In this document: in pieces, positions 21,290 to 46,761 of the stretch
How the letters are laid out: every line of letters starts with the position of its first letter
Position numbering within the stretch: the first letter of the stretch is position 1
From: Caminibacter pacificus
Lineage (GTDB): Bacteria; Campylobacterota; Campylobacteria; Campylobacterales; Nautiliaceae
DNA length: 64,000 nt
Assembly (NCBI RefSeq): GCF_003752135.1
Contig: NZ_RJVK01000001.1
Location: forward strand, 558,001-622,000
Direction: 5' to 3'
Made by a program: the position numbers and the translations under genes
The notes under the pieces: model-generated
The model's database searches: none
What the model was told of the DNA's origin: nothing
Seen by the model: only the letters and a program-made list of their open reading frames with translations

Positions 21290-22114
21290 CTATTTAAAAA
21301 CAACAACTTTATTAATGTTATTTTTTAAAATTTTTATTATTTTAGTTTTGTTTAAATCATTTTGCTTTAATAAATAACAATCATCTAATTCTAAAATTAA
21401 TAGACCTTTATAAAATCTTTTATTATTTGTTTCTATTTCTACAGGAATTTCTTTCCCACCACCAAAACTTTTATCTATATTTGAATAAATAAATTTTCCA
21501 AAGTAAACTGCAAATAAAATTAACCCAAATAACAATGAAAAAGAAGTAAAATAAAAATTTACATTATGTAAATATTTAATAATCTTAAAAAAAAGTAAAT
21601 AAACTGTTAAAAGAAAATAAAAAGCAAATATTATAAACTCAATCAGATAATGTTTCCACGAAAAAATAAAAATAATTACTACAATAATTTTAAATATTAA
21701 TTCAAAAGCTAAAATTAATTTATTATAAATTTTTAATAATTCTAAAATAAAAAAAAATACAAATCCACTAAAAAAGATATATTCAATCAAATTATCATGG
21801 ACTGAAAAAAATATATTATTTAATATAAATGTATTTAGAGTTAATAAAAAAAACATTTCAATAGAACAATACCATAACACATACTTTTTTATACAAATAA
21901 CTAAGTTATTCCACACTAAAAAATAATATTCCAGCAAAAATACCAAAAATAATAAACCAGCAATTATATTTAAAGTACTAATAGCATTAACCTCATAAAC
22001 GCTATATTTACCCAAAAATGCATTTACAATAACAAAACCAAATAAATATATAAAAAACATAAATAATATACTATATTTTTCAATGCCGTTGACATTTTTT
22101 AAGAATTCATCCAT
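21290..22114 (-). CDS. Unknown multi-pass membrane protein, very AT-rich
   Basis: 274 residues. Residues 15 to about 210 contain seven or more hydrophobic segments (for example YSILFMFFIYLFGFVIV and LIFKIIVVIIFIFSW) rich in Phe, Ile, Leu and Tyr; the last 60 residues form a soluble tail with GLLILELDDCYLLK. I recognise no family. Base composition is visibly more AT-rich than its neighbours, with repeated ATT/TAA strings and few of the GC-containing codons used nearby, so recent acquisition is likely. It sits alone between a methyltransferase and dapE, transcribed against both. It could be an accessory or defence-related membrane protein; no evidence decides. Confidence 0.65.
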   Translation of the reverse strand: MDEFLKNVNGIEKYSILFMFFIYLFGFVIVNAFLGKYSVYEVNAISTLNIIAGLLFLVFLLEYYFLVWNNLVICIKKYVLWYCSIEMFFLLTLNTFILNNIFFSVHDNLIEYIFFSGFVFFFILELLKIYNKLILAFELIFKIIVVIIFIFSWKHYLIEFIIFAFYFLLTVYLLFFKIIKYLHNVNFYFTSFSLLFGLILFAVYFGKFIYSNIDKSFGGGKEIPVEIETNNKRFYKGLLILELDDCYLLKQNDLNKTKIIKILKNNINKVVVFK

Positions 22115-34684: not shown

Positions 34685-35815
34685 ATGAAATTTCAAAAAT
34701 CAAAAGTATTACTGATATCTTTTGCTCATTTTACGCATGATATCTTCTCAGCTCTTCTTGCTCCTATTCTTCCTCTTTTGATAGACAAAATGGGAATTAC
34801 GCTAACACAGGCAAGTCTTTTTGACATAGCAAGAAAACTACCAGCCCTTTTTAACCCCGTTTTGGGAATAGTGGCAGAGCGCACCAACGCAAAATATTTC
34901 GTAATCCTCGCTCCTGCCGTAACTGCTATATCCATGGGACTTTTGGGAGTTGTAAATTCATACTTTTTAGCACTGTTGCTGCTTTTTATTGCAGGTATCA
35001 GCGCTACTTTTTTTCATATCCCAAGCCCCGCTATGATAAAAGAATTCTCAGGCGATGAGAGCGGCAAAGGAATGAGCTATTTTATGGCGGCGGGTGAAAG
35101 CGCGAGGACGATAGGACCTCTGCTTGCCGCGGCGGTTATATCCATGTGGGGACTTGAAGGGATTTTGAGACTTTCGGTCTTAGGGATAATCGCTTCTATT
35201 TTTCTTTATATCAAACTAAAAGACTACACGCCAAAATACCAAGCAAAAAAATTCGAAACAACACAAATCAAAGATACACTAAGAAAAGTCAGCCCGTTTT
35301 TTATAAAGCTTGGCTCTTTTATGATGTTAAACTACACTTCAAAATTTTCCCTTAGCCTCTTTTTACCGGTATATCTGACCCAGCACGGGAAAAGCGCGGA
35401 GTTTGGGGCTATTGCTTTTGGTATTATGCAAGCGGGAGGAATTTTGGGGGCGTTTTTTGGAGGTAGGATATCGGATAAAATAGGCAGAAAAAAAGCACTG
35501 CTTTTTCAGGCTATTGGTGCGAGTTTATTTTTGGCGCTCTTTTTAGTTATGAATTCTATATTCGTACTTCCGTTTTTGGGATTTTTTCTTTTTTCTCAAT
35601 CACCCGTACTTCTTGCTTTCACACACGACCTAAAAACCGATACCCCGAATTTCATCAACAGCCTTTATATGTTTATTAATTTCGGTATCAGCTCTTTAAT
35701 CGTTCTTTTTGCGGGGATTTTGGGACAGCATTTGGGATTATTCAAAACATTCGAAATTGCAGCGATTTTGACACTTCTGTCAATTCCTTTTATCTATACG
35801 ATAAAAACTCAATAG
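34685..35815 (+). CDS. MFS transporter
   Basis: 376 residues with about twelve transmembrane helices. Signs of the major facilitator family: N-terminal SFAHFTHDIFSALLAPILPLL and an inter-repeat loop GGRISDKIGRKKALL, the usual GRxSDxxGRR-like motif between helices, here in the second half. The pattern is close to drug-resistance and fosmidomycin-resistance-like transporters. Substrate unknown. It begins two bases after marC. Its end overlaps the Fic gene's stop on the other strand by 7 bases. Confidence 0.88.
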   Translation: MKFQKSKVLLISFAHFTHDIFSALLAPILPLLIDKMGITLTQASLFDIARKLPALFNPVLGIVAERTNAKYFVILAPAVTAISMGLLGVVNSYFLALLLLFIAGISATFFHIPSPAMIKEFSGDESGKGMSYFMAAGESARTIGPLLAAAVISMWGLEGILRLSVLGIIASIFLYIKLKDYTPKYQAKKFETTQIKDTLRKVSPFFIKLGSFMMLNYTSKFSLSLFLPVYLTQHGKSAEFGAIAFGIMQAGGILGAFFGGRISDKIGRKKALLFQAIGASLFLALFLVMNSIFVLPFLGFFLFSQSPVLLAFTHDLKTDTPNFINSLYMFINFGISSLIVLFAGILGQHLGLFKTFEIAAILTLLSIPFIYTIKTQ

Positions 35816-36702
35816 ACTCTTTTTCTCATTTCTTCTATAGCATTCGCCAAAAAATATGCAAGCGGCAAAATATCACCTTCTTTTTGCGCTTTTTCAAGAG
35901 TCATATAATAAAAAGATTTGTTTTGTGCATTAATAAGAGGCGGCAATAAATTTAATTTGACAAACTGATGAGCCATAATAAGTCTGCCTACTCTTCCGTT
36001 TCCATCCCCAAAAGGATGAATTAATTCAAAATGCTCATGAGCTTTTGCAATATCATAAATATTAGATACGTTTCCGTATAGTTTTACCCAATACTCCATC
36101 TCTTCTTCTATATCTTCAGGATGAGTTAAGGTTAAATCCGAATTTTTGATTTTTCTTATATGTTTTGAATACTCTCCGGCATCCTCTCTTATACCCAAAA
36201 ACAACCCGAAATGCCATTTTTTAATTAAATCGGTGGTTATTTTTTCAATTTTACCTTCTATAGTTTGTTCGATAATTTGTTTAGTTAAAAAAGCAAGGTT
36301 ATTCATTTCAAGAAGTTTTCTTTTTTCTATATCTTTTTGAATATACCTACCCTCTATAATTTTTTCAAACTCCTCTTCATTCGAATCAGAAACCTCAATT
36401 TCATACGAACCGAATGCTTGAATTTTGCTAACCTCTTCAATCAAATCAATGTTTCTTAAATATCTGCTATCATCAAGGGAAATAATCTTTTTGACATATT
36501 TTTCAACTTCTTCTTTTTTTAAAGCCGGAATAAAAATATACTTGTTATACAACACGTCAATTTTAAATCTATTCTCTTCACTTATATTACCTCCGTCGCG
36601 CCAATTAATAAGACTCATACGACTTACACCCAAAGCTTGGGCAAGCTTAGTAGAATACTTAAAAAATTTAAGCAATTCTTCAATTTTTTGTTGATAATCC
36701 AA
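35809..36702 (-). CDS. Fic-domain protein with N-terminal helix-turn-helix
   Basis: 297 residues. The Fic motif is HPFGDGNGRVGR (residues 229-240) with all catalytic positions, so it should transfer AMP (or a related group) onto a protein hydroxyl. The N-terminus has a helix-turn-helix (LAQALGVSRMSLINWRD, about 20-36), suggesting DNA binding and autoregulation. No canonical inhibitory (S/T)xxxE(G/N) helix is clear. The start is TTG 36702 with AAGGG five bases upstream. The upstream 85 bases carry four TTTACAC sites in two pairs overlapping a promoter. It closes the accessory island downstream of prmC and may be an independent toxin-like or regulatory unit. Confidence 0.88.
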   Translation of the reverse strand: MDYQQKIEELLKFFKYSTKLAQALGVSRMSLINWRDGGNISEENRFKIDVLYNKYIFIPALKKEEVEKYVKKIISLDDSRYLRNIDLIEEVSKIQAFGSYEIEVSDSNEEEFEKIIEGRYIQKDIEKRKLLEMNNLAFLTKQIIEQTIEGKIEKITTDLIKKWHFGLFLGIREDAGEYSKHIRKIKNSDLTLTHPEDIEEEMEYWVKLYGNVSNIYDIAKAHEHFELIHPFGDGNGRVGRLIMAHQFVKLNLLPPLINAQNKSFYYMTLEKAQKEGDILPLAYFLANAIEEMRKRVY

Positions 36703-36720: not shown

Positions 36721-36793
36721 TTTACACAAATATTTTACACAAAAAAGGTAATTATGTAAAGCAACAGTGCAAATTTACACTTTCACTTTACAC
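36721..36793 (-). promoter_or_regulatory. Four-site operator and promoter region of the Fic gene
   Basis: TTTACAC occurs at 36721-36727, 36734-36740, 36774-36780 and 36787-36793: two pairs, each with 13-base spacing, 53 bases apart. On the minus strand a TTTACA (-35) and TAAAAT (-10) separated by 17 bases lie within this DNA, with GTGTAAA sites over the -10. The last site overlaps the prmC stop. Likely bound by the HTH of the Fic protein; that link is inferred. Confidence 0.6.
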
Positions 36794-37690
36794 TATTATC
36801 TCAACGCCTCTAATATTTCCCGCCAAATCCTCAAAAAATTCAAAACTTTTAACTTTTCCTTCCAAATACTCACTTAAACTTTTCTTTTGATTATAACCTA
36901 TCTCCAAAACCAAGGCTTTATATTTCAAAGCAATAGCATAATTTATCAGTTTCCTTACTATATCAAGCCCGTCATCTCCTCCGAAAAAAGCAATATCGGG
37001 CTCATAAACATTCGGCTTTTTCCAGCTGTTTTCCACATACGGAGGATTGGAGAGTAAAATATCACCCTTTATCAAACCTTTTTCAATCTCAAAACCGAAA
37101 TTTTTGATATTTTCTTCAATATCATTGTATTGCAAAATATCATTTTGTTCTATTTTCTCTTGACTTGCCCTACTTTTTACAGATATTAAATCCGAATCTC
37201 TCAAACCTCTCACATCCAACAAGTCGGCTTTCACTACTTTTACTTTTTCTTGCACTCCACTTAACATAATATTTTTTCTCGCAACTTCTATAGCTGTGTC
37301 GCTTATATCCGTAGCCAAAACTTTTGAATTCGTATGTTTTGCAACTTCTATCGCTATCACTCCGCTTCCCGTACAGCAATCCACCACCCTGCATCCATTT
37401 TCCATTTTACATTTTCCATTTATTAATTTTATAGCTCTTTCTACCACCACTTCCGTATCGTCTCTTGGAATCAGCACACCTTCTTTTATATAAAACTTAT
37501 CTCCATAAAACCACACTTCTTCAAAAATATACTCAATCGGGTACCCTTTTTTTACCTTCTCAAGTATCTCAATTGCCTCTTTTGGTACTTCAATATTATC
37601 GTTTAAGTATATCCAGGTCTTGTCTTTATTTAGTACTTTTTCTAAGATGTAAATTCCATCTCTTTCTTTTATAAAATCTTTTATTTTCAT
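36788..37690 (-). CDS. prmC: Release-factor glutamine methyltransferase PrmC
   Basis: Methylates the Gln of the GGQ loop of RF1 and RF2. N-terminal helical domain, then the family string GYPIEYIFEEVWFYGDKFYI and GVLIPRDDTEVVVERAI, SAM motif I VVDCCTGSGVIAIEVAKH (about residues 105-122), and the catalytic LLSNPPYVE. About 40 residues between the acidic loop (KADLLDVR) and NPPY look inserted relative to the usual protein (RGLRDSDLISVKSRASQEK is part of it). A heptanucleotide repeat lies within the coding sequence ahead of motif I. Start ATG 37690 overlaps the jetD stop as ATGA, so a housekeeping gene is tied to the defence operon. The target, prfA, is at 58.8 kb. Confidence 0.88.
   Translation of the reverse strand: MKIKDFIKERDGIYILEKVLNKDKTWIYLNDNIEVPKEAIEILEKVKKGYPIEYIFEEVWFYGDKFYIKEGVLIPRDDTEVVVERAIKLINGKCKMENGCRVVDCCTGSGVIAIEVAKHTNSKVLATDISDTAIEVARKNIMLSGVQEKVKVVKADLLDVRGLRDSDLISVKSRASQEKIEQNDILQYNDIEENIKNFGFEIEKGLIKGDILLSNPPYVENSWKKPNVYEPDIAFFGGDDGLDIVRKLINYAIALKYKALVLEIGYNQKKSLSEYLEGKVKSFEFFEDLAGNIRGVEIIV
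37394..37421. repeat. Heptanucleotide repeat TCCATTT inside prmC
   Basis: Four tandem 7-base units on the plus strand: TCCATTT, TCCATTT, TACATTT, TCCATTT. On the coding (minus) strand they read AAATGGA and encode part of NGKCKMENGC just before SAM motif I. Because the unit is not a multiple of three, loss or gain of one unit would frameshift prmC. Confidence 0.75.
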
Positions 37691-38427
37691 TTATTAAGTA
37701 CCTCCTGCTCTACTACGGCTGAATGGTTTTTGATTAATTCATATACAGCATCCACTTTTTTTACTTTATCTTCAATAAACTTTTGTTTGAGGTAAAGTTT
37801 TTGATTTGGATATTTTATAAAAAGCTCTTCTAAGTTTTCAGGCACAAAAAATTCTTTGCTTTTACACTTAATCGAATCAAATATCATCATCCCGTAAAAA
37901 TCAAAATCCCCAAAAAACAATATATCTTTATCTCTTAAAAACTCAGCCGTTTTTTTATTGCTATATCCCCCAAGATATATAAAATCCACTTCTTTAAACA
38001 ACTCAAAATCAATCCTCAAAAAACTCTCATAATTCTCAACCACAACAACCCTGCCGCTAATTTTAGGCTCAAATTCATCATAAAAAATTTGAGGAAGTGC
38101 ATTTCTTTTTCTATGTATTATCGTAATATCGCTTGTGTGAAGATTTTTGGCTTTCGTATCCTTAAAAATTTCTGCGAGTTCTTTTTTGCTTTCAACCTCT
38201 CCAAAATCTTCAAACTTACATCCAAGAATACTTTCAATAAACCTCCCAAAAATTTTTTCATCATTAATAATAACCTCTTTACCCCTAAACCTTACAAAAT
38301 ACCTAAAAACATCCTCTTTTTTGCTAAATTCATCAATAAGTTTTACCAAATCTTTTCTGTCTTTGCTATTTTCTACAATTCCGTTTTTTACTTCTTTTAT
38401 TATGCGGTAAAATCTTTTTTTAGTCAT
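37687..38427 (-). CDS. jetD: JetD/MksG-type Toprim nuclease of a Wadjet system
   Basis: 246 residues resembling the DUF2220 nuclease of Wadjet, which cuts plasmid DNA gathered by the JetABC SMC complex. The Toprim core is readable: catalytic Glu in VVVVENYESF (E131), FIYLGGYSNKKTAEFL, the acidic pair in FFGDFDFYGM (D174, D176) and a late EQE at residues 240-242, which matches metal-site residues of the family. The N-terminal arm domain is shorter than in long JetD proteins. It is the last defence gene of the series and overlaps mcrC by 8 bases and prmC by 4. Unlike standard jetABCD order, mcrBC separates it from jetC. Nuclease activity is inferred from the intact residues. Confidence 0.82.
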   Translation of the reverse strand: MTKKRFYRIIKEVKNGIVENSKDRKDLVKLIDEFSKKEDVFRYFVRFRGKEVIINDEKIFGRFIESILGCKFEDFGEVESKKELAEIFKDTKAKNLHTSDITIIHRKRNALPQIFYDEFEPKISGRVVVVENYESFLRIDFELFKEVDFIYLGGYSNKKTAEFLRDKDILFFGDFDFYGMMIFDSIKCKSKEFFVPENLEELFIKYPNQKLYLKQKFIEDKVKKVDAVYELIKNHSAVVEQEVLNK

Positions 38428-39592
38428 TTATTATCCTCTTAACCTCTTTTTCGCAATTTTTCAAATCAATAAACCTTACTTTCAATTTATATTCTTCATC
38501 AAACCCAAACTCTTGTTCTTCAATATTATAAACCCTCGGAAAAATCAAAGTCACTTCTTTTGAAGAATATTTTTGCGAATATGCAAACATTTGATAAAAG
38601 TCATTTCCTAAAATATCATCTAAAGATTCAATTATCTTCCATTTTGTATCAAAAATCTTATTTTCAATAACAATATCAGGAGTGAGGCGATATTTTTTAT
38701 CCACATCAAAAAGATAATATTTTTTATGCTGAAGTTTTACTTTATCACAATATTTTTTAAACCAATACCCGACAAAACTTTCAAACAGCTTATTCATATC
38801 AAAAAGAATTGCAAATGAAATACTTTCACCTTTATAAGGAGTAAAAGATTTGTTATCCAAAAACACCTTACATATCTCAATCACGTTTTCATAATATTTT
38901 TTACTTCTGTCGATATGAATTTTTTTTAATTCTGACAAACTTCTAATTTCACCCACATCATCAAAAACAAACATGAATTCCCTAATTCTACGTTGATTTT
39001 CTAAATTTTTTGAGAGTTTATTTAATTTTATAAGAGTTGTTTTTATAACTCTATTTTCCAAGATATCTTCGATATATTCGTCATACTCCACAAAAAATCT
39101 CTCTTTATGTACTAAATTGTTTTTAATATGTTCGTTAATTAAAAGTTTGCCTTTTAAAAATTTTTGATTTTCCTGAATGGAAATGTAGTCTCTTTTTATT
39201 CCTTTTTTAACCAATTTATCAAGTTCATTTAGAAAAAAAGAGACAAAAATCTCTAAAAGAGACATTTTCTCAGTCTTTAGATTTGCGGTTGAAAGTTTTT
39301 TAAAAGGATGATTTTTAAGAGTTTTTATCATCTCAATTAAGATTATTTTACTTTCTTTGTAAGTATCATTACCAACAGAAATTTTAGGAAATATCTCAAG
39401 CACAAATCCGCTTTTTGTCTGGATAATTCCTACATAGTTTTGAGATTTCAAAACCCCTTTTTTAGAATACGATAAAAACTCAGTAGTTTGTGCTATTTCT
39501 TCAAGCTCTTTGAAATATTTTTTATTAATATTTTTTTTATTTATCTCTTCATACTCTATAATTTGAAAATGTTTATTATTGATTTTCTTCAT
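38420..39592 (-). CDS. mcrC: McrC-type restriction endonuclease subunit
   Basis: Partner of McrB; in known systems it supplies the nuclease that cuts DNA containing modified cytosine. 390 residues. N-terminal part includes YVGIIQTKSGFVLEIFPKI, the middle ILENRVIKTTLIKL (usual McrC string), and the PD-(D/E)xK nuclease lies at KYRLTPDIVIENKIFDTKWK, with D306, D315 and K317 as the catalytic set and NDFYQMFAYSQKY after it. All residues needed for cleavage appear intact. Start ATG 39592 lies 17 bases inside mcrB; its end overlaps jetD by 8 bases. Confidence 0.9.
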   Translation of the reverse strand: MKKINNKHFQIIEYEEINKKNINKKYFKELEEIAQTTEFLSYSKKGVLKSQNYVGIIQTKSGFVLEIFPKISVGNDTYKESKIILIEMIKTLKNHPFKKLSTANLKTEKMSLLEIFVSFFLNELDKLVKKGIKRDYISIQENQKFLKGKLLINEHIKNNLVHKERFFVEYDEYIEDILENRVIKTTLIKLNKLSKNLENQRRIREFMFVFDDVGEIRSLSELKKIHIDRSKKYYENVIEICKVFLDNKSFTPYKGESISFAILFDMNKLFESFVGYWFKKYCDKVKLQHKKYYLFDVDKKYRLTPDIVIENKIFDTKWKIIESLDDILGNDFYQMFAYSQKYSSKEVTLIFPRVYNIEEQEFGFDEEYKLKVRFIDLKNCEKEVKRIIND

Positions 39593-41423
39593 TGTATATT
39601 TTTTTATAATTTTCTATCTCTTCGAAAGCATTTTTATCTATTTCATAAACTATTTTTTCATCATCGGCTAACTTACCTAAATATTTAAACTCTTTTTCTT
39701 TTATAAATCCGTTATTATTTAAAACCAAATTAATCTTTTCCCAGTCATCATAAAAATACTCTTGAAGCAAAGGAATGATTTTATTTTTGAAAACTTCTTT
39801 TAACTCTTCAAAAGTTTCAATATTTATAAAATAAGCGTGCCCGATTGTATGGTCTCTGTCGTATAAAAACTCAATTCTTTCATTCATAGCTTTTAGCATT
39901 TCTGAAATATCAATATCTTCAATATTTGGTAACTCATCATATTCTGGCATCATTTCAACAAATTCAAATCTTCTTCTCAAAGCCGTATCCATTAAAGCGA
40001 TACTTCTATCAGCAGTATTCATTGTCCCGATAATATAGAGATTTTTAGGTACCCCAAAATCTTCCTTGCTATAAGGAAGTTTTACTCTCATCTCTTCCTT
40101 ATTCCCAAGCCTCTTATCCTTTTCAATCAATGTAATAAGTTCACCAAAAATTTTAGAAATATTCCCGCGGTTTATTTCGTCGATTATGAGGATGTAGTTT
40201 TTTAACACTTCATCTGAATCAACTTCTGAATCACTTTTTAAATAGTTTAAAACTCCCTGATAATAAGGTTCTAAACCTCCAACTATTCTGGATTTAACAT
40301 CTTCAGAATTATAAATATCTTTTAAAGTTTTAATGGAAAGAGTATGACTTATGTCTCCATTTTCTTTTTCAAATTTTATACTTCTGTCTGTTACTTCATA
40401 AACATAAATATTTTTTCTTTTTAATGGAATTTTTATTTTTTCCTCAGCTTCCAATTTATCAATTATTTTTTCTTTAAAAACTTCTTCAAAAGATTTTTTT
40501 CTTTTTCTATTTTTATATGTATACAAGTTTTTTTTTGCTTTATTGCTCAACTCTTTAAAAATCCCATCGTCAATCTCATAATAAACATTACCCTCTTCAT
40601 CTGTTTTTGCTTTTAAACCTTCCACAAATTCTTCATAACTATAGCTTTGATGAAATGTCACAAATTCTATTTGCCCCTCTTTTTGATACTTTTTAAATTT
40701 TTCTTTTGCTTCTTCTCTTGAACTTGGCATAACTTCCTCAATTATCTCAACAGCACTCTCAATTACACTATATGTCTTCCCTGTACCTGGAGGTCCATAT
40801 AAAATTTGGTTGAGGGAAGTTTTCGGTTTATTGTTATTTTCATGATTCATTAATTTACTTTCCTTCATGCTAAATTCTTTTGTATCATGATATTTATTTA
40901 ATAATAATTGAATTATCACGGGTTCATAAGAAGGATAAGTATAATCTTCCTTTTCGAACATAATTCTTAAAATTTTATTTAATGAAATACTCATACGTTC
41001 TTGACCGTTTCCTCCATCACCTATTGTGACTAATGATGAAGAATTTATATCAATAGCAAAAGGATTTCCTTCCAATGTTTTCACCACAAGAGGTCCGTAT
41101 TTTTGAATTTCTTTATATAAACTTTCATATCTTTTTTTTATTTCTTCTTCATTTATTGAATCTCCATAAAAATTATTCTGATATTCTAAATATTTTCTGT
41201 ATGCTGATTTAAAATCATTATATAGATCAGGATGCAATTTATTCTTTTCTACATATTCTTGAAATTTTTCTTTAAATTCATCATTGTCAAATTCATGGAT
41301 ATTTAAATTTAATTTATTTATTATTTCAAATCCTCTTTTTAAATAGGATATATATGTATCCATTGACTTGATAAAATTTATATTTTTACAAAACCTTTTA
41401 AAGCCATTAATATCCAATATCAT
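39576..41423 (-). CDS. mcrB: McrB-type AAA+ GTPase of a modification-dependent restriction system
   Basis: 615 residues. The N-terminal 200 residues should hold the DNA-reading domain and match no family I can name (helical, with FYGDSINEEEIKKRYESLYK in part). The AAA+ motor has Walker A ILYGPPGTGKTYS (about 208-219), Walker B YILIIDEINRGNISKIFGE (about 410-428), the McrB GTP signature GTMNTADRS (466-474) and arginine residues in ALRRRF (481-486). This hexameric motor drives McrC along DNA. ATG 41423 has AAAAGG eight bases upstream. It is separated from jetC by 165 bases but overlaps mcrC by 17. What modified base or DNA feature it recognises cannot be told. Confidence 0.9.
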   Translation of the reverse strand: MILDINGFKRFCKNINFIKSMDTYISYLKRGFEIINKLNLNIHEFDNDEFKEKFQEYVEKNKLHPDLYNDFKSAYRKYLEYQNNFYGDSINEEEIKKRYESLYKEIQKYGPLVVKTLEGNPFAIDINSSSLVTIGDGGNGQERMSISLNKILRIMFEKEDYTYPSYEPVIIQLLLNKYHDTKEFSMKESKLMNHENNNKPKTSLNQILYGPPGTGKTYSVIESAVEIIEEVMPSSREEAKEKFKKYQKEGQIEFVTFHQSYSYEEFVEGLKAKTDEEGNVYYEIDDGIFKELSNKAKKNLYTYKNRKRKKSFEEVFKEKIIDKLEAEEKIKIPLKRKNIYVYEVTDRSIKFEKENGDISHTLSIKTLKDIYNSEDVKSRIVGGLEPYYQGVLNYLKSDSEVDSDEVLKNYILIIDEINRGNISKIFGELITLIEKDKRLGNKEEMRVKLPYSKEDFGVPKNLYIIGTMNTADRSIALMDTALRRRFEFVEMMPEYDELPNIEDIDISEMLKAMNERIEFLYDRDHTIGHAYFINIETFEELKEVFKNKIIPLLQEYFYDDWEKINLVLNNNGFIKEKEFKYLGKLADDEKIVYEIDKNAFEEIENYKKIYNEENQ

Positions 41424-41435
41424 TGTTAATACCTT

Positions 41436-41558
41436 TTATTTGAATTCGACACACTTATTAATATCTTTAATTTTAATCCAAAATCTTTTTTTTCTTAATG
41501 TGTTTATTTCAATTTTCCTATCCCTCCATATCCCAAATGCAATATCTTCTCTTTTCAT
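41436..41558 (-). CDS. Possible 40-residue ORF between jetC and mcrB
   Basis: An ATG at 41558, immediately after the heptanucleotide repeat, opens 40 codons ending TAA 13 bases before the mcrB ATG. The peptide (MKREDIAFGIWRDRKIEINT, then LRKKRFWIKIKD) is basic. The FGIW-DR-x(6)-LRKKR pattern resembles the C-terminal tail of small antitoxins that end in GIWKDR...LRKKAW. It may be the remnant of an antitoxin gene or a short leader peptide for mcrB. There is an AATGGAA repeat but no good Shine-Dalgarno upstream (GGAGAATGGAAA). Coding status uncertain. Confidence 0.4.
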   Translation of the reverse strand: MKREDIAFGIWRDRKIEINTLRKKRFWIKIKDINKCVEFK

Positions 41559-41593
41559 TTTCCATTCTCCATTCTCAATTCTCAATTCTCAAT
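41552..41593. repeat. Heptanucleotide tandem repeat at the end of jetC
   Basis: Six 7-base units on the plus strand: TTTTCAT, TTTCCAT, TCTCCAT, then three TCTCAAT (41552-41593). The array covers the jetC stop codon (41589-41591) and runs to the start of the 40-codon ORF. It is related to the TCCATTT repeat inside prmC 4 kb downstream. Confidence 0.8.
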
Positions 41594-44500
41594 TTACCCT
41601 AACCCCTTCTTCTCCGATAAGTCTTACGACTTCAAACTCACCGCCGATGTTTCTGAATTTGTAGATGTCGATTTCGTCTACGTCTACAAGCGGAAGGTCC
41701 GGTGTAACGTATATAACCCCAAGGCCTCTTTCGTTTACGTATTCTTTTAGAAGTTTTTGGTTTTTGGTTGAAAGGACGCTTACCTCATCTAAGATTAGGA
41801 AAAGTGAGGCTTTTTCTTTTATAAATAGCTCAAGCAAACTCACGGCAATTGCGATTTTTAGTAATATCGACCCACCGGTTGAGCTTTCGTTTTTGATGAG
41901 TTTGAGGGTGTTTTCTTTTTCGTTTTCTATAAATTTTACGTTTATATCCACGACGTCTATCAATGTAAAGCTTTCACTCTTAACTTCTTGTTTGATGATA
42001 TTGAAAAGCTCTTCGATTTTTCTGAGTTTTCTATCGCTCTCAGCCCTGTCGAAAAATAGTGACTCTTCACTCTCAAGCAGAGTCACCAAATCAGCGATAT
42101 TTTCTTTGATTTCATCAAAGATTTTTAAAATATTTCTTTTTGTCTCTTCAATTTCTATTCTTATACCTTTAATAATCCCGAAATCCACTTTGCTTAAGTT
42201 GTTATTGATTCTTTTTACCTGTTTTAGGAAGTCTTCTTTTGCGCCTTCAAAGTTATCGAGTTTTTTATCAAGGATACCTGAGATTAGGTTTTTTAGACCT
42301 TTAAGCCTTGTTTTATTAAGTACGTCGAATTTTTTATCTTTGAAGATATAAAGCTCATCCACTTTTTCAAGCTCTTCGGCTACCAGGTTTCCAAGAGCCT
42401 CAAGGTTGAAGTTTACTTCAAGCCCCTCTACAACGAATCTCTCAAGTGCACTTTTTATATCGCTTGCTATATCTTTTAGGGCGATTTTTTTCTCTTTGAA
42501 TTCTGAGTCTTTTAGTTTGTATTCGTCAATCAGAGTACTCAAATATTCGTTTGTTTTTATTTTATTTTCAGGCAGTTTAATTCCCGATACTTTTTTTAGC
42601 CCTTCTTTTACGATGTTTAGTTCGTTATCTTTATTTTTTATTTTCTCTTCGATTTTAGCGAGTTTATTATTTAGGATTTTTTCCATTTTTAAGAAAAATT
42701 CGTTAATTCTTACTTTATAGTTTTGGTATTTTTCGAGTTTTTGTTTTAGAGAATTTTCGGAGTTTATAAACTCTTTTTTCTCTTCCCACTCTTTCAAAAA
42801 CATTTCGGCTTTTTCTATCTCTTTTAGTTTATTTCTTATGTTTTGAATTTCTCTGTTTAGTTCTTCAACCCTTTCGTCTTTTGATATTTTGTTTTTCTTG
42901 ATATTTAATTCGTTGATTTTTTCATCTATTAATGCTTCTTTTTGTTTAAATTCTTCTATTAATTTTTCTTTTATTTCTTTGAATTTTTGAATTTTTTCTT
43001 TTTCGAGTTCCTCTTTTTTGTTTTGAAGTTCTCTTTTTAATGCTTTTATGTCTCTTCTGATTTTATTAATCTCTTCGTTTAGGGCTTTTATTTCATCGTT
43101 TTTTTTGTTGATGTTTATTTTTATGAGTTTTATTTCTTCGTTTTTTAGGTTGTTTAGTTCGTTTAGTTTAGCTTTTAGTTTTTCATTTAGGTTTTTAATC
43201 TCTTCATCAATTAGCTTAAATTCGGCATCTATCTCTTTTGCTTTTTCTTCGTTTATTTCGATTTTCGAGGTAATTTCTATCTCTTTTGCTTTAAATTCTT
43301 TCTCCAAAAGACTTAAAGTATTTTGAAGCTCTTTATTTAGCGAATCGATATTGATATTTAGTTTTTCTATCTCTTCTTCCGCTTCTTTCATGGTAGGAAT
43401 GGATTTTAAACGGCTCTTGTCAAGCTCTATTCCAAATACCCTATCACTAACAACTTTCGGTTTTAATTCATCAATATCCATACTCAAAAGTTTTTCGTCA
43501 ATCACTGGATATAGTTCTTCTTCCCAGTTTTCCACGTTTTGATTTAAGAATTCTTTAAAAGAATTAGGTTTTGTTTTTAGGATGTTTTTGTAAAAAATGA
43601 TTTTTTCTTCCAAAAGAGATATTTTTCTTGTGTACTCTTTTTTTATGTTTTCTACTTTTTCCTGATAATCACCTTTTAATTTTTTCAGCTCTCTTTTAAG
43701 CCTTACGACTTCATCAAGCAGTTCGTCTTTTTTTATTTGAATTTCTCTTTTTTTGTTTTTGAGTTTGTTTATTTCTTCTTGAATTTCGGCTTTTAGTTCG
43801 TCTTCTTTTTTTGAATATTTGAAATTTACTTCGTTTAGTTCTCTTTGGTAAGCTCTTTTTTCATCTTCTTTTTCGGTTATCTCTTTTTCTATTTTTTCAA
43901 TTTTGCTTAAAAGTTCTTTTTCTTTTTGAATGAATTCCTCTTTTACTTTTTCGAATTTTTCGAAAAACTCTTCTTCCAAGTTTCTTTTTTCCCTGATTTC
44001 TTCTTCTTTTAGTTTGTCTTTTAGAATTCTTTTTTCTCTTTTTAGTCTTTCTATCTCTTCTTCAATCTCTTCGACCTGGTTTTTTATTCCTTTAATCAGT
44101 TCGTTAAGAGATGTTTGGAGAGTTATGAGTTTTTTTTCGATTTCTTCTTTTTGAGACACCTTTTTTTCCGCTTCTTGGATTGCTTTTAGGTTGAAAATCT
44201 CTTTTAGTTTTTCAATCTCTTTTAGTTTAGAGCTAAGCTCAAAAATAGTGTTTTGAATATTTTCTTCTATATTTTTGATTTTCTTATCAAAATATCCGAA
44301 TTGCTTTAAGACTTTTCTTTTTTTAGTTTCAAGCTCTTTTAATTCATTTATAAGCTCATCTACGAGTTTTTCTTCGATTTCTTTTTTATAAGCTATTTTT
44401 GCAAGCACTTCTTCAATATCTTTTTTTAATTCGATAAGAGCGTTTTTATAGATATATAGTTTTTCGATATTTGCGCTTTCTTGTTTGAATTTTCTATAAA

Positions 44501-45143
44501 AAATAAAATATTGCCTGTAATCCATAAGCTCGTTTGCAAACTCTTCGTAATTAATCTCACCCGCTTCCACCCTATCAAGGGTAGTAAAAATAGTCTCTTT
44601 TATACTTTTTGCATCGAATACGGCTCTATTTACGTTAAAGATTTTATTGTAAAGGTTTATAAAAGTGTTGTAGTTTTTTATGGTTGTGAGTTTAAAATCA
44701 AGCCTTTGTCTATCAAGCCCGTATATGATTTTTTTGTATTCTTCGTTTGTTTGAGGGCGGTATTTTAAAGGCGCTTCGTTAGCATATTCTATCACTTCTT
44801 TAAGAGGTGCGATTTCATCGCCTTTTAGGACTCTGTTTAAATCAAATTTTTGCTTGCTAAAAATTCTTTTAATATCACCCGAGCGTTTATACATCAAAAC
44901 AAAATAATCTTCAAATTCATAAACTAAAAACGAGTTGTCGTATTTAAAATAAAAGTCTTTAAAACTCTCTTTGTTCGGGTCTATTCCAAGCGCTTTTACA
45001 TCGGAATTGTAATAGTAATGAATAGCTCTAATAGCCGTAGTTTTCCCGCTTCCGTTATCTCCTACGAAAAAGACGTTTTTTTTGCGTAAATCTATCTCGG
45101 CAAATCCGAAATTTGCGGCGTTAAAAAAATATATCTTATTCAT
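41589..45143 (-). CDS. jetC: JetC/MksB-type SMC ATPase of a Wadjet system
   Basis: 1184-residue SMC-like motor. Walker A is FFVGDNGSGKTTAIRAI (residues about 25-41); between about 230 and 900 it is almost pure Lys/Glu-rich coiled coil with a central hinge-like segment near residues 520-600 (KTKPNSFKEFLNQNVENWEE begins it). The C-terminal head has the signature STGGSILLKIAIAVSLLELF and Walker B LFLILDEVSVLS. Start ATG 45143 is chosen because AAGGAGAAG precedes it; a GTG at 45158 would lie upstream of that site. It overlaps jetB by 8 bases. Together with JetA and JetB it should extrude DNA loops and identify small circular plasmids. The stop lies in a heptanucleotide repeat. Confidence 0.88.
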   Translation of the reverse strand: MNKIYFFNAANFGFAEIDLRKKNVFFVGDNGSGKTTAIRAIHYYYNSDVKALGIDPNKESFKDFYFKYDNSFLVYEFEDYFVLMYKRSGDIKRIFSKQKFDLNRVLKGDEIAPLKEVIEYANEAPLKYRPQTNEEYKKIIYGLDRQRLDFKLTTIKNYNTFINLYNKIFNVNRAVFDAKSIKETIFTTLDRVEAGEINYEEFANELMDYRQYFIFYRKFKQESANIEKLYIYKNALIELKKDIEEVLAKIAYKKEIEEKLVDELINELKELETKKRKVLKQFGYFDKKIKNIEENIQNTIFELSSKLKEIEKLKEIFNLKAIQEAEKKVSQKEEIEKKLITLQTSLNELIKGIKNQVEEIEEEIERLKREKRILKDKLKEEEIREKRNLEEEFFEKFEKVKEEFIQKEKELLSKIEKIEKEITEKEDEKRAYQRELNEVNFKYSKKEDELKAEIQEEINKLKNKKREIQIKKDELLDEVVRLKRELKKLKGDYQEKVENIKKEYTRKISLLEEKIIFYKNILKTKPNSFKEFLNQNVENWEEELYPVIDEKLLSMDIDELKPKVVSDRVFGIELDKSRLKSIPTMKEAEEEIEKLNINIDSLNKELQNTLSLLEKEFKAKEIEITSKIEINEEKAKEIDAEFKLIDEEIKNLNEKLKAKLNELNNLKNEEIKLIKININKKNDEIKALNEEINKIRRDIKALKRELQNKKEELEKEKIQKFKEIKEKLIEEFKQKEALIDEKINELNIKKNKISKDERVEELNREIQNIRNKLKEIEKAEMFLKEWEEKKEFINSENSLKQKLEKYQNYKVRINEFFLKMEKILNNKLAKIEEKIKNKDNELNIVKEGLKKVSGIKLPENKIKTNEYLSTLIDEYKLKDSEFKEKKIALKDIASDIKSALERFVVEGLEVNFNLEALGNLVAEELEKVDELYIFKDKKFDVLNKTRLKGLKNLISGILDKKLDNFEGAKEDFLKQVKRINNNLSKVDFGIIKGIRIEIEETKRNILKIFDEIKENIADLVTLLESEESLFFDRAESDRKLRKIEELFNIIKQEVKSESFTLIDVVDINVKFIENEKENTLKLIKNESSTGGSILLKIAIAVSLLELFIKEKASLFLILDEVSVLSTKNQKLLKEYVNERGLGVIYVTPDLPLVDVDEIDIYKFRNIGGEFEVVRLIGEEGVRVN

Positions 45144-45657
45144 CAACTTCTCCTTCACTTATCGCATCTACAATATCAAGATAATAATTTATAGAGTTAA
45201 GCACTACATATTCGTCTTTTTTACCTCTGTTTTCTATGACGTAGAATCTCTCAAGCAGATTAAAAAGCTTATCGGTAATTTCGATAATATCATTCGTATC
45301 AAAAAGCGCTTTTATGATTTTTTCATCTTTTTTTGCCTCGAATCTTTTTATAAATTCGCTTTTTTTGATTTTGTGTCCCTTATCAAGATGAACGAAAACT
45401 TTTTTTAACTGAGCAAGTGCCAAAATAAGCTGTTTGTGGGAATTAAAAAACTTCTCTTCTTCATCGGCTTTCAAATCTTTGCTAAGGTAAAAATATCCGT
45501 TTTCACCCACCAAATAAAGCCCGATTTTATTAAGAGTCCTGTTTAGTGATTCGAAATTCTCATCCTCCATAAGCCATGAGGCTTCTTTTTGAAATTTCGA
45601 AGAATTGGTGGAGATTATTACGCCCTTACTTAATATTTCAAAAATTACGCTTTCCAT
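45136..45657 (-). CDS. jetB: JetB/MksE-type subunit of a Wadjet SMC complex
   Basis: 173 residues, small winged-helix-like protein of the MukE/MksE/DUF4194 class, which bridges kleisin and SMC. Visible features: WLMEDENFESLNRTLNKIGLYLVGENGYFYL, which fits the winged-helix arrangement (quoted in two overlapping pieces: WLMEDENFESLNRT and KIGLYLVGENGYFYL), and LFNLLERFYVIENRG. Identification rests mainly on size and on its place between a kleisin-like and an SMC gene. ATG 45657 lies 13 bases inside jetA; its end overlaps jetC by 8 bases, the strict stoichiometric coupling common to Muk/Mks/Jet operons. Confidence 0.78.
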   Translation of the reverse strand: MESVIFEILSKGVIISTNSSKFQKEASWLMEDENFESLNRTLNKIGLYLVGENGYFYLSKDLKADEEEKFFNSHKQLILALAQLKKVFVHLDKGHKIKKSEFIKRFEAKKDEKIIKALFDTNDIIEITDKLFNLLERFYVIENRGKKDEYVVLNSINYYLDIVDAISEGEVDE

Positions 45658-46694
45658 TTTACTACCCTTACGTTAAATTCATTGTATTCTTTTGTATATG
45701 TGAGTTTTTTGTCGAAGTGGTTGAGGATATAGACAAACACCCTAACGCTTTCATTTAACAGTTCTTTATCGATTTTTCCGACATATGCGATAATGCTTTT
45801 AAATATATCTTCACTGCCCTCGATACTTTTAATAAGACCTTTTAGGTCGATTAAATTTATCACTTCTTCGAGGTCTCTTTTTACGTGAGAATGTTTGATT
45901 TTTCTCTCTTTTGTGAATTTTCCTATTATTTCTCTTATTTTTTCATAATTTACATACGCGCTATCAGGAACGTATTCGAATTTTTGTTTTATTACGAAAC
46001 GTTTTGTAATTAAAAAGTTGTCGATTCTATTATCTTCATTTATTATTAAATGAGCGATTTTAAAGAGTTTTTGATTAAAGCGTCTTTTCTTTTCAGTTTG
46101 AGTTATGAATTCTCTTAGTCTCTTTAAATAACTATCAACGTTTTGATTCAAATGTATGATATCAAGCAAAATATCTTTTACAAACTCTTTAAAATCACCA
46201 AATTCCATAAACCCTTCAAAAACATTCACTATCATTTCGTTTTTAACCATAATCTCTTCGACGTCTTTTAGTATGCTTCTTGCCTCTTTTATCAAAAATT
46301 CAAGCTCACTCACCTCATCGTTTTCAAGCTTTTCGATAAGTCCCAAAAGCCTTTTGTCGCGGTTTTTCATTCCCTGATAGATTCTGTTTAAAAGTTTGAA
46401 AATCAAATCTCTTAAATAGTTGCTTTTGTTTAGTTTGTACTCTTCTTTCAGCTCTATCAGTTTTTTAAGCTCTTTATCAAAATCCTCCGCGATATAGCTA
46501 AAATCCGCCCTTGCAAGCAGAGTATCCACAAAAGTAAAATATATTTCATTGAGATAATAAAACCCGCCGACTTTATTAAAAAGACCTATTTCAATGAGTT
46601 CCTGGGGGACTGAGAGTAGTTTTTTGTTTTTATACGCACTGTCTAAGATTTTTCTGTGACGACAAAGAAGATTCAAAAGCTCAATATGTTTCAT
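45645..46694 (-). CDS. jetA: JetA/MksF-type kleisin subunit of a Wadjet SMC complex
   Basis: 349 residues, largely helical. N-terminal LLNLLCRHRKILDSAYKNKKL and IGLFNKVGGFYYL form a winged-helix-like region; the middle (about 90-220) is coiled-coil-like with DRRL-type charged helices; the C-terminus is a smaller domain ending VRVVKWKA. This plan is that of the MukF/MksF kleisin. Recognition depends on gene order jetA-jetB-jetC more than on a single motif. ATG 46694 follows AGGAGAG; a TATAAT box lies about 30 bases upstream, so jetA is first in the island's operon. Confidence 0.78.
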   Translation of the reverse strand: MKHIELLNLLCRHRKILDSAYKNKKLLSVPQELIEIGLFNKVGGFYYLNEIYFTFVDTLLARADFSYIAEDFDKELKKLIELKEEYKLNKSNYLRDLIFKLLNRIYQGMKNRDKRLLGLIEKLENDEVSELEFLIKEARSILKDVEEIMVKNEMIVNVFEGFMEFGDFKEFVKDILLDIIHLNQNVDSYLKRLREFITQTEKKRRFNQKLFKIAHLIINEDNRIDNFLITKRFVIKQKFEYVPDSAYVNYEKIREIIGKFTKERKIKHSHVKRDLEEVINLIDLKGLIKSIEGSEDIFKSIIAYVGKIDKELLNESVRVFVYILNHFDKKLTYTKEYNEFNVRVVKWKA

Positions 46695-46720: not shown

Positions 46721-46726
46721 ATTATA
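46721..46726 (-). promoter_or_regulatory. -10 element of the jetABC operon
   Basis: TATAAT on the minus strand, 27 bases upstream of the jetA ATG at 46694, in the 67-base gap after the SDR gene. No strong -35 box. It implies that the defence island has its own promoter rather than depending on the upstream genes. Confidence 0.5.
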
Positions 46727-46761
46727 ACATCAAAAAATGACTTGAAAAGGAAAAAAAGAAG

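Follow-up and report, generated by a model that had tools for sequence, protein, structure and literature searches.

A complete mcrB-mcrC pair lies between jetC and jetD of a Wadjet operon in a 64,000-nt stretch of the Caminibacter pacificus genome (the whole stretch analysed, hereafter the window). Are the two systems parts of one combined defence unit, as the original prediction proposed, or was the operon split by an insertion, which it offered as a second view? The host belongs to the Nautiliaceae (Campylobacterota), a vent-associated family, and the nearest named relatives of the window are Nautiliaceae metagenome-assembled genomes. The open reading frames (ORFs) bear out the predicted order, jetA-jetB-jetC-mcrB-mcrC-jetD, followed by prmC, in a head-to-tail run on the minus strand, the strand also of the jetC-mcrB gap and the promoter-like site given below. 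The predicted overlaps of 17 nt between mcrB and mcrC and of 8 nt between mcrC and jetD are both correct, and an ATGA overlap joins jetD to prmC, which is thus the last gene of the run. The mcrBC genes break the four-gene contiguity of the Wadjet layout, a departure in layout and not in subunit composition. A gap of 165 nt (41424..41588) separates jetC from mcrB, and no terminator-like site was found between these two genes. A promoter-like site lies 5′ of jetA (46721..46748; TTTTCA-16-TATAAT, with TG before the −10 region); it was picked up by a consensus scan alone, in which the total number of sites was near chance. The original prediction had JetD made from the McrBC message and not from that of jetABC; this does not follow, as nothing indicates separate transcripts.

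The core of the Wadjet system consists of a kleisin-like JetA (MksF, 349 aa; 45645..46694), a KITE protein, JetB (MksE, 173 aa; 45136..45657), and an SMC ATPase, JetC (MksB, 1189 aa, GTG start; 41589..45158). JetB was identified as an MksE-type KITE subunit (PF21980, E = 9.8e-16). JetC is a DUF3584/SMC-like protein (E = 4e-14), and its Walker A (GDNGSGKT), signature (STGGSI), and Walker B (LFLILDEV) motifs are all intact; a PDB sequence search with JetC gave nothing useful. The Pfam search gave no match for JetA, which was assigned by its operon position and its homology to the JetA proteins of relatives (61–92% identity with family homologues); the best Foldseek matches of its AF2 model (pTM 0.42) are to MukF and are weak (E = 0.01).

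The fourth Wadjet protein, JetD (MksG, 246 aa; 37687..38427), is a small Toprim nuclease (PF09983, JetD_C, E = 4e-9). A PDB sequence search gave nothing useful for JetD; its AF2 model (pLDDT 83) matches C. glutamicum MksG (8b7f, Z 11.9) and P. aeruginosa JetD (7til, Z 8.9), in both cases over residues 96–246. The first ~95 residues, where a CAP/arm part would lie, are shorter than in type I and fall outside the MksG alignment. Residues E131, D174, and D176 (Glu plus DxD) are invariant across 11 homologues. Compared with the copy in another genome of the genus (G122), jetD has a dN/dS of about 0.10, with dS near saturation, indicating purifying selection, and the catalytic residues are kept. 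A mosaic origin of jetD was considered from its lower dS to the G122 copy (0.68, vs. 1.8–2.9 for jetABC) and was dropped because the third-position identity of jetD is also higher against a second genome of the genus, G075; the low dS is more likely an effect of rate or codon usage. No plasmid relatives of the window JetD were found, and a search of viral contigs gave no relatives.

McrB (615 aa; 39576..41423) is an AAA+ GTPase (AAA_5, E = 4.5e-14) with the NTAD motif, present as MNTADRS, and its closest solved relative is PDB 6ut3 (E = 1.5e-69). McrC (390 aa; 38420..39592) is the PD-(D/E)xK nuclease subunit (PF10117, E = 9.6e-88; PDB 6ut5, E = 4.7e-18); it carries the PD...DxK motif, and PDIVIENKIFDTK occurs in its sequence. 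The motifs predicted to be intact in McrC, McrB, JetC, and JetD were all recovered. The N-terminal ~200 aa of McrB have no Pfam match, and this part is weakly similar to one Campylobacterota McrB (L154). At the end of the run, prmC (hemK, a release-factor methyltransferase gene; 36788..37690; TIGR03534, E = 2.6e-55) encodes an additional ~45 residues before NPPY (window 37061-37222), which six relatives lack or have in a much shorter form; this stretch is a single copy among the sequences compared. Just 3′ of prmC is a gene for a Fic-domain protein (window 35809-36702) that matches the candidate defence families PDC-S04/SoFic. Elsewhere in the window, a hydrophobic 274-aa ORF (21290-22114) has a GC content of 17.6%, the window minimum.

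The same chromosomal site was then compared among the relatives. JetA is present in 9 of 21 family genomes, at 10 loci, and eight of these loci adjoin a conserved SDR gene and/or prmC; in seven of the eight, the contents of the jetC-prmC interval are visible. In G075, this site reads SDR-jetA-jetB-jetC-jetD-prmC, with 4-nt overlaps and without mcrBC. Four genomes (G101, G123, G113, and G033) have an empty interval, in which jetC abuts or overlaps prmC and jetD is missing, with jetABC retained between the conserved flanks HtpX-SDR-...-prmC. In G015 (L026 3219-7672), genes for a WD40 protein and a phosphoesterase occupy the position where G075 has jetD; the phosphoesterase has partial similarity, below cut-offs, to the anti-phage families DS9_1 and DS8. 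The right border of this slot, prmC, is common to G075, G101, G015, G123, G113, and G033, and the window's slot holds mcrB-mcrC-jetD. Two jet loci are present in G122. One, the core copy, is the closest relative of the window locus (JetABC 92–95% identical), and the other is a contiguous jetABCD at a second site. The contig of the core copy stops inside jetC, so that the slot of the nearest relative is not visible. At loci L027, L042, L043, and L045, prmC directly follows jetABC without jetD, and the hosts also have no detectable ScpA.

A search for the order jetC-mcrB-mcrC-jetD, as the original prediction had suggested, found no case outside the window in the 397 phylum genomes sampled or in the 21 family genomes. 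The GC contents of mcrB (26%) and mcrC (25%) are lower than those of jetA, jetB, and jetC (30–32%) and of the window (34%). The jetC-mcrB gap, which starts GAATTGAGAATTGAGAATGGAG, contains the 15-nt string AATGGAAAATGAAAA just 3′ of jetC (from 41566 downwards), and the same string recurs just after jetC at the jetC/jetD junction of G122; it was found nowhere else in the window, nor in the other nine neighbour loci checked. The shared string suggests, with the small weight that 15 A-rich bases can carry, that the insert entered near the old start of jetD, and the gap probably marks the insertion's left boundary. It also contains a 40-codon ORF (41439-41558), for which the fetched loci gave no relative; this ORF may be what is left of DNA that arrived with mcrBC. 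Collectively, these comparisons show what appears to be a lineage-specific insertion of mcrBC at a spot where defence genes seem to come and go. The direction of change is read from the same-site jetABCD-prmC of G075, the contiguous jetABCD of G122, and the confinement of the arrangement to the window among the genomes sampled, and on these grounds the insertion view is favoured over that of a combined unit.

Wadjet loci elsewhere in the phylum place this slot in a wider pattern. The JetD profile gave 22 matches in the sample of 397 genomes, about 18 of them convincing. Most of these loci are uninterrupted, with the order jetD-A-B-C or A-B-C-D, the former being common also for the JetD subfamily of the window, and jetABC often persists where jetD is missing. 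At one such locus in G089 (L147 9544-11105), an upstream PIN-domain gene overlaps the start of jetA. In G412 (L145 4069-18308), jetD is followed by an 86-aa ORF, by genes for RhuM and an HKD-Snf2 helicase, and by a type IIG-like enzyme gene that overlaps jetA of the jetA-B-C run. In G346, jetD lies near a contig end, and a RhuM gene 5′ of jetABC on another contig may point to a similar layout. In Sulfurovum sp. FS08-3 (L056 8737-9324), jetC is cut to a 195-aa frame after intact jetD-jetA-jetB, and this Wadjet is probably broken.

McrC was detected in 148 of the 397 genomes, and of 30 McrC loci retrieved together with their flanking genes, only those of the window and G404 adjoin jet genes. The G404 locus (L090 7875-16412) reads mcrB-mcrC-jetC-jetD-jetA-jetB, with all genes overlapping, and is part of a larger defence island. 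Its JetC is of a different type (873 aa) that is rare, with matches in 3 of the 397 genomes, and the arrangement lacks conservation: jetC-jetA-jetB of the same type occurs in G324, with no mcrBC or jetD in the parts fetched. Since the McrBC-Wadjet operon of G404 is separate from that of the window, the pairing arose at least twice. Taken together, the window, G412, and possibly G346 suggest that defence genes have entered repeatedly at the boundary between jetABC and jetD; the cases are few, and defence genes cluster anyway.

We consider it probable that the locus is a small-JetD Wadjet (MksBEFG) that was entered at the jetC/jetD junction by a mobile McrBC type IV module, and that the two systems act side by side. 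The gene content, order, and motifs, the JetD fold, the relatives without the insert, and the variable slot on which this explanation draws were all observed directly. The McrBC module would have landed at the junction in such a way that the genes stayed head to tail, making co-expression possible. By analogy with other Wadjets, JetABC would most likely extrude loops on small circular DNA and trigger cleavage by JetD. McrBC would separately translocate along DNA, driven by GTP, and cut DNA carrying a modified base read by its N-terminal domain. Wadjet and McrBC would thus be two independently active systems under shared transcription, and the layout implies co-expression only, not a shared mechanism. 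Four points weigh against a plain insertion: the overlaps of mcrB, mcrC, and jetD, together with the lack of a terminator-like site, mean that the run could work as an operon and was possibly selected as such; G404 carries a second McrBC-Wadjet operon with overlapping genes; the dS values are near saturation; and the slot of the G122 core copy is out of sight.

An alternative that we regard as possible, though doubtful, is that jetABC serves in this family mainly as an MksBEF-type chromosome organizer, and that jetD and mcrBC are dispensable passengers in the slot downstream of it. A chromosomal role of jetABC is plausible because ScpA was found in none of the 21 family genomes (the control was positive in 9 of 14), and several genomes retain jetABC without jetD. 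However, jetABC is absent altogether from several complete family genomes (G048, G062, and G088) and therefore cannot be essential, and the purifying selection on JetD of the window and G122 does not suit a passenger. The retention of jetABC without jetD at the HtpX-SDR-...-prmC site in four genomes also fits an explanation in which jetABC is a modular SMC platform, a shared sensor of DNA shape that triggers interchangeable effectors held in the adjacent slot, and, in the pair measured, such loci show purifying selection (G123/G113, dN/dS 0.04–0.13, with dS near saturation). The replacement of jetD in G015, the RhuM, helicase, and type IIG-like genes between jetD and jetABC in G412, and the joining of McrBC to a different Wadjet in G404 can be read in the same way. 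We nevertheless hold a platform of this kind to be unlikely: numerous relatives of McrBC stand alone and its known mechanism needs no partner, type IIG enzymes are likewise known to function on their own, and defence genes tend to cluster in any case. No shared interface was found, and the N-terminal part of JetB is no different in genomes that have jetD from that in genomes that lack it. The more specific proposal that JetABC of the Campylobacterota has been repeatedly coupled to effectors at the jetD boundary, with McrBC and JetD both effectors or partners of the loop extruder at this locus, is more improbable still.

The combined unit of the original prediction, in which McrBC and JetD would have a substrate in common or activate one another, with JetD as a second nuclease of the modified-DNA motor, appears the most improbable of these explanations. 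The 8-nt overlap of mcrC and jetD suggests translational coupling, and G404 provides a second McrBC-Wadjet operon; but the arrangement in the window is lineage-specific, JetD of the relatives pairs with JetABC without McrBC, and the four close McrBC pairs whose surroundings were inspected (McrC 45–59% identical) are all stand-alone, each having an McrC nuclease of its own. No positive evidence for a JetD shared by McrBC emerged. The insertion of an McrBC module into a Wadjet operon thus remains our preferred explanation.

Compared with known systems, the locus resembles Wadjet/MksBEFG (EptABCD) in its order A-B-C of genes for a putative kleisin, a KITE protein, and an SMC protein, its intact SMC motifs, and its Toprim JetD. 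It differs in being a small-JetD, MksE-type variant (JetD of 246 aa vs. about 370–400 aa in type I) and in that jetD is not adjacent to jetC. As in McrBC type IV restriction, an AAA+ GTPase McrB with NTAD and an McrC nuclease are encoded with a 17-nt overlap, but this pair is located inside another defence operon and the putative recognition domain at the N terminus of McrB has no Pfam match. A phage defence island combining BREX with type IV restriction (PMC8565348) likewise has two systems with separate targets at one locus; in the window, by contrast, the partner separates a nuclease from its SMC sensor. The MksBEF of Pseudomonas aeruginosa, which has no JetD, resembles the jetABC loci without jetD in several relatives, whereas the window keeps jetD, displaced. 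In the open-licence PMC literature, we found no paper combining Wadjet and Nautilia and no description of a "nested defense", and a census of McrBC makes no mention of Wadjet (PMC11090510). The layout is a novel variant of already known systems, and its variable slot is the part most worth following.

Should insertions prove recurrent at the boundary between jetABC and jetD, defence finders that need four adjacent jet genes would overlook such loci or assign them to the wrong type, and new defence genes could be sought at this boundary. JetD is present in 3 of the 21 family genomes, and the jetABC loci without jetD, in a family without detectable ScpA, form a natural series in which to ask whether the complex becomes a condensin after the loss of its nuclease or is re-armed with other effectors.
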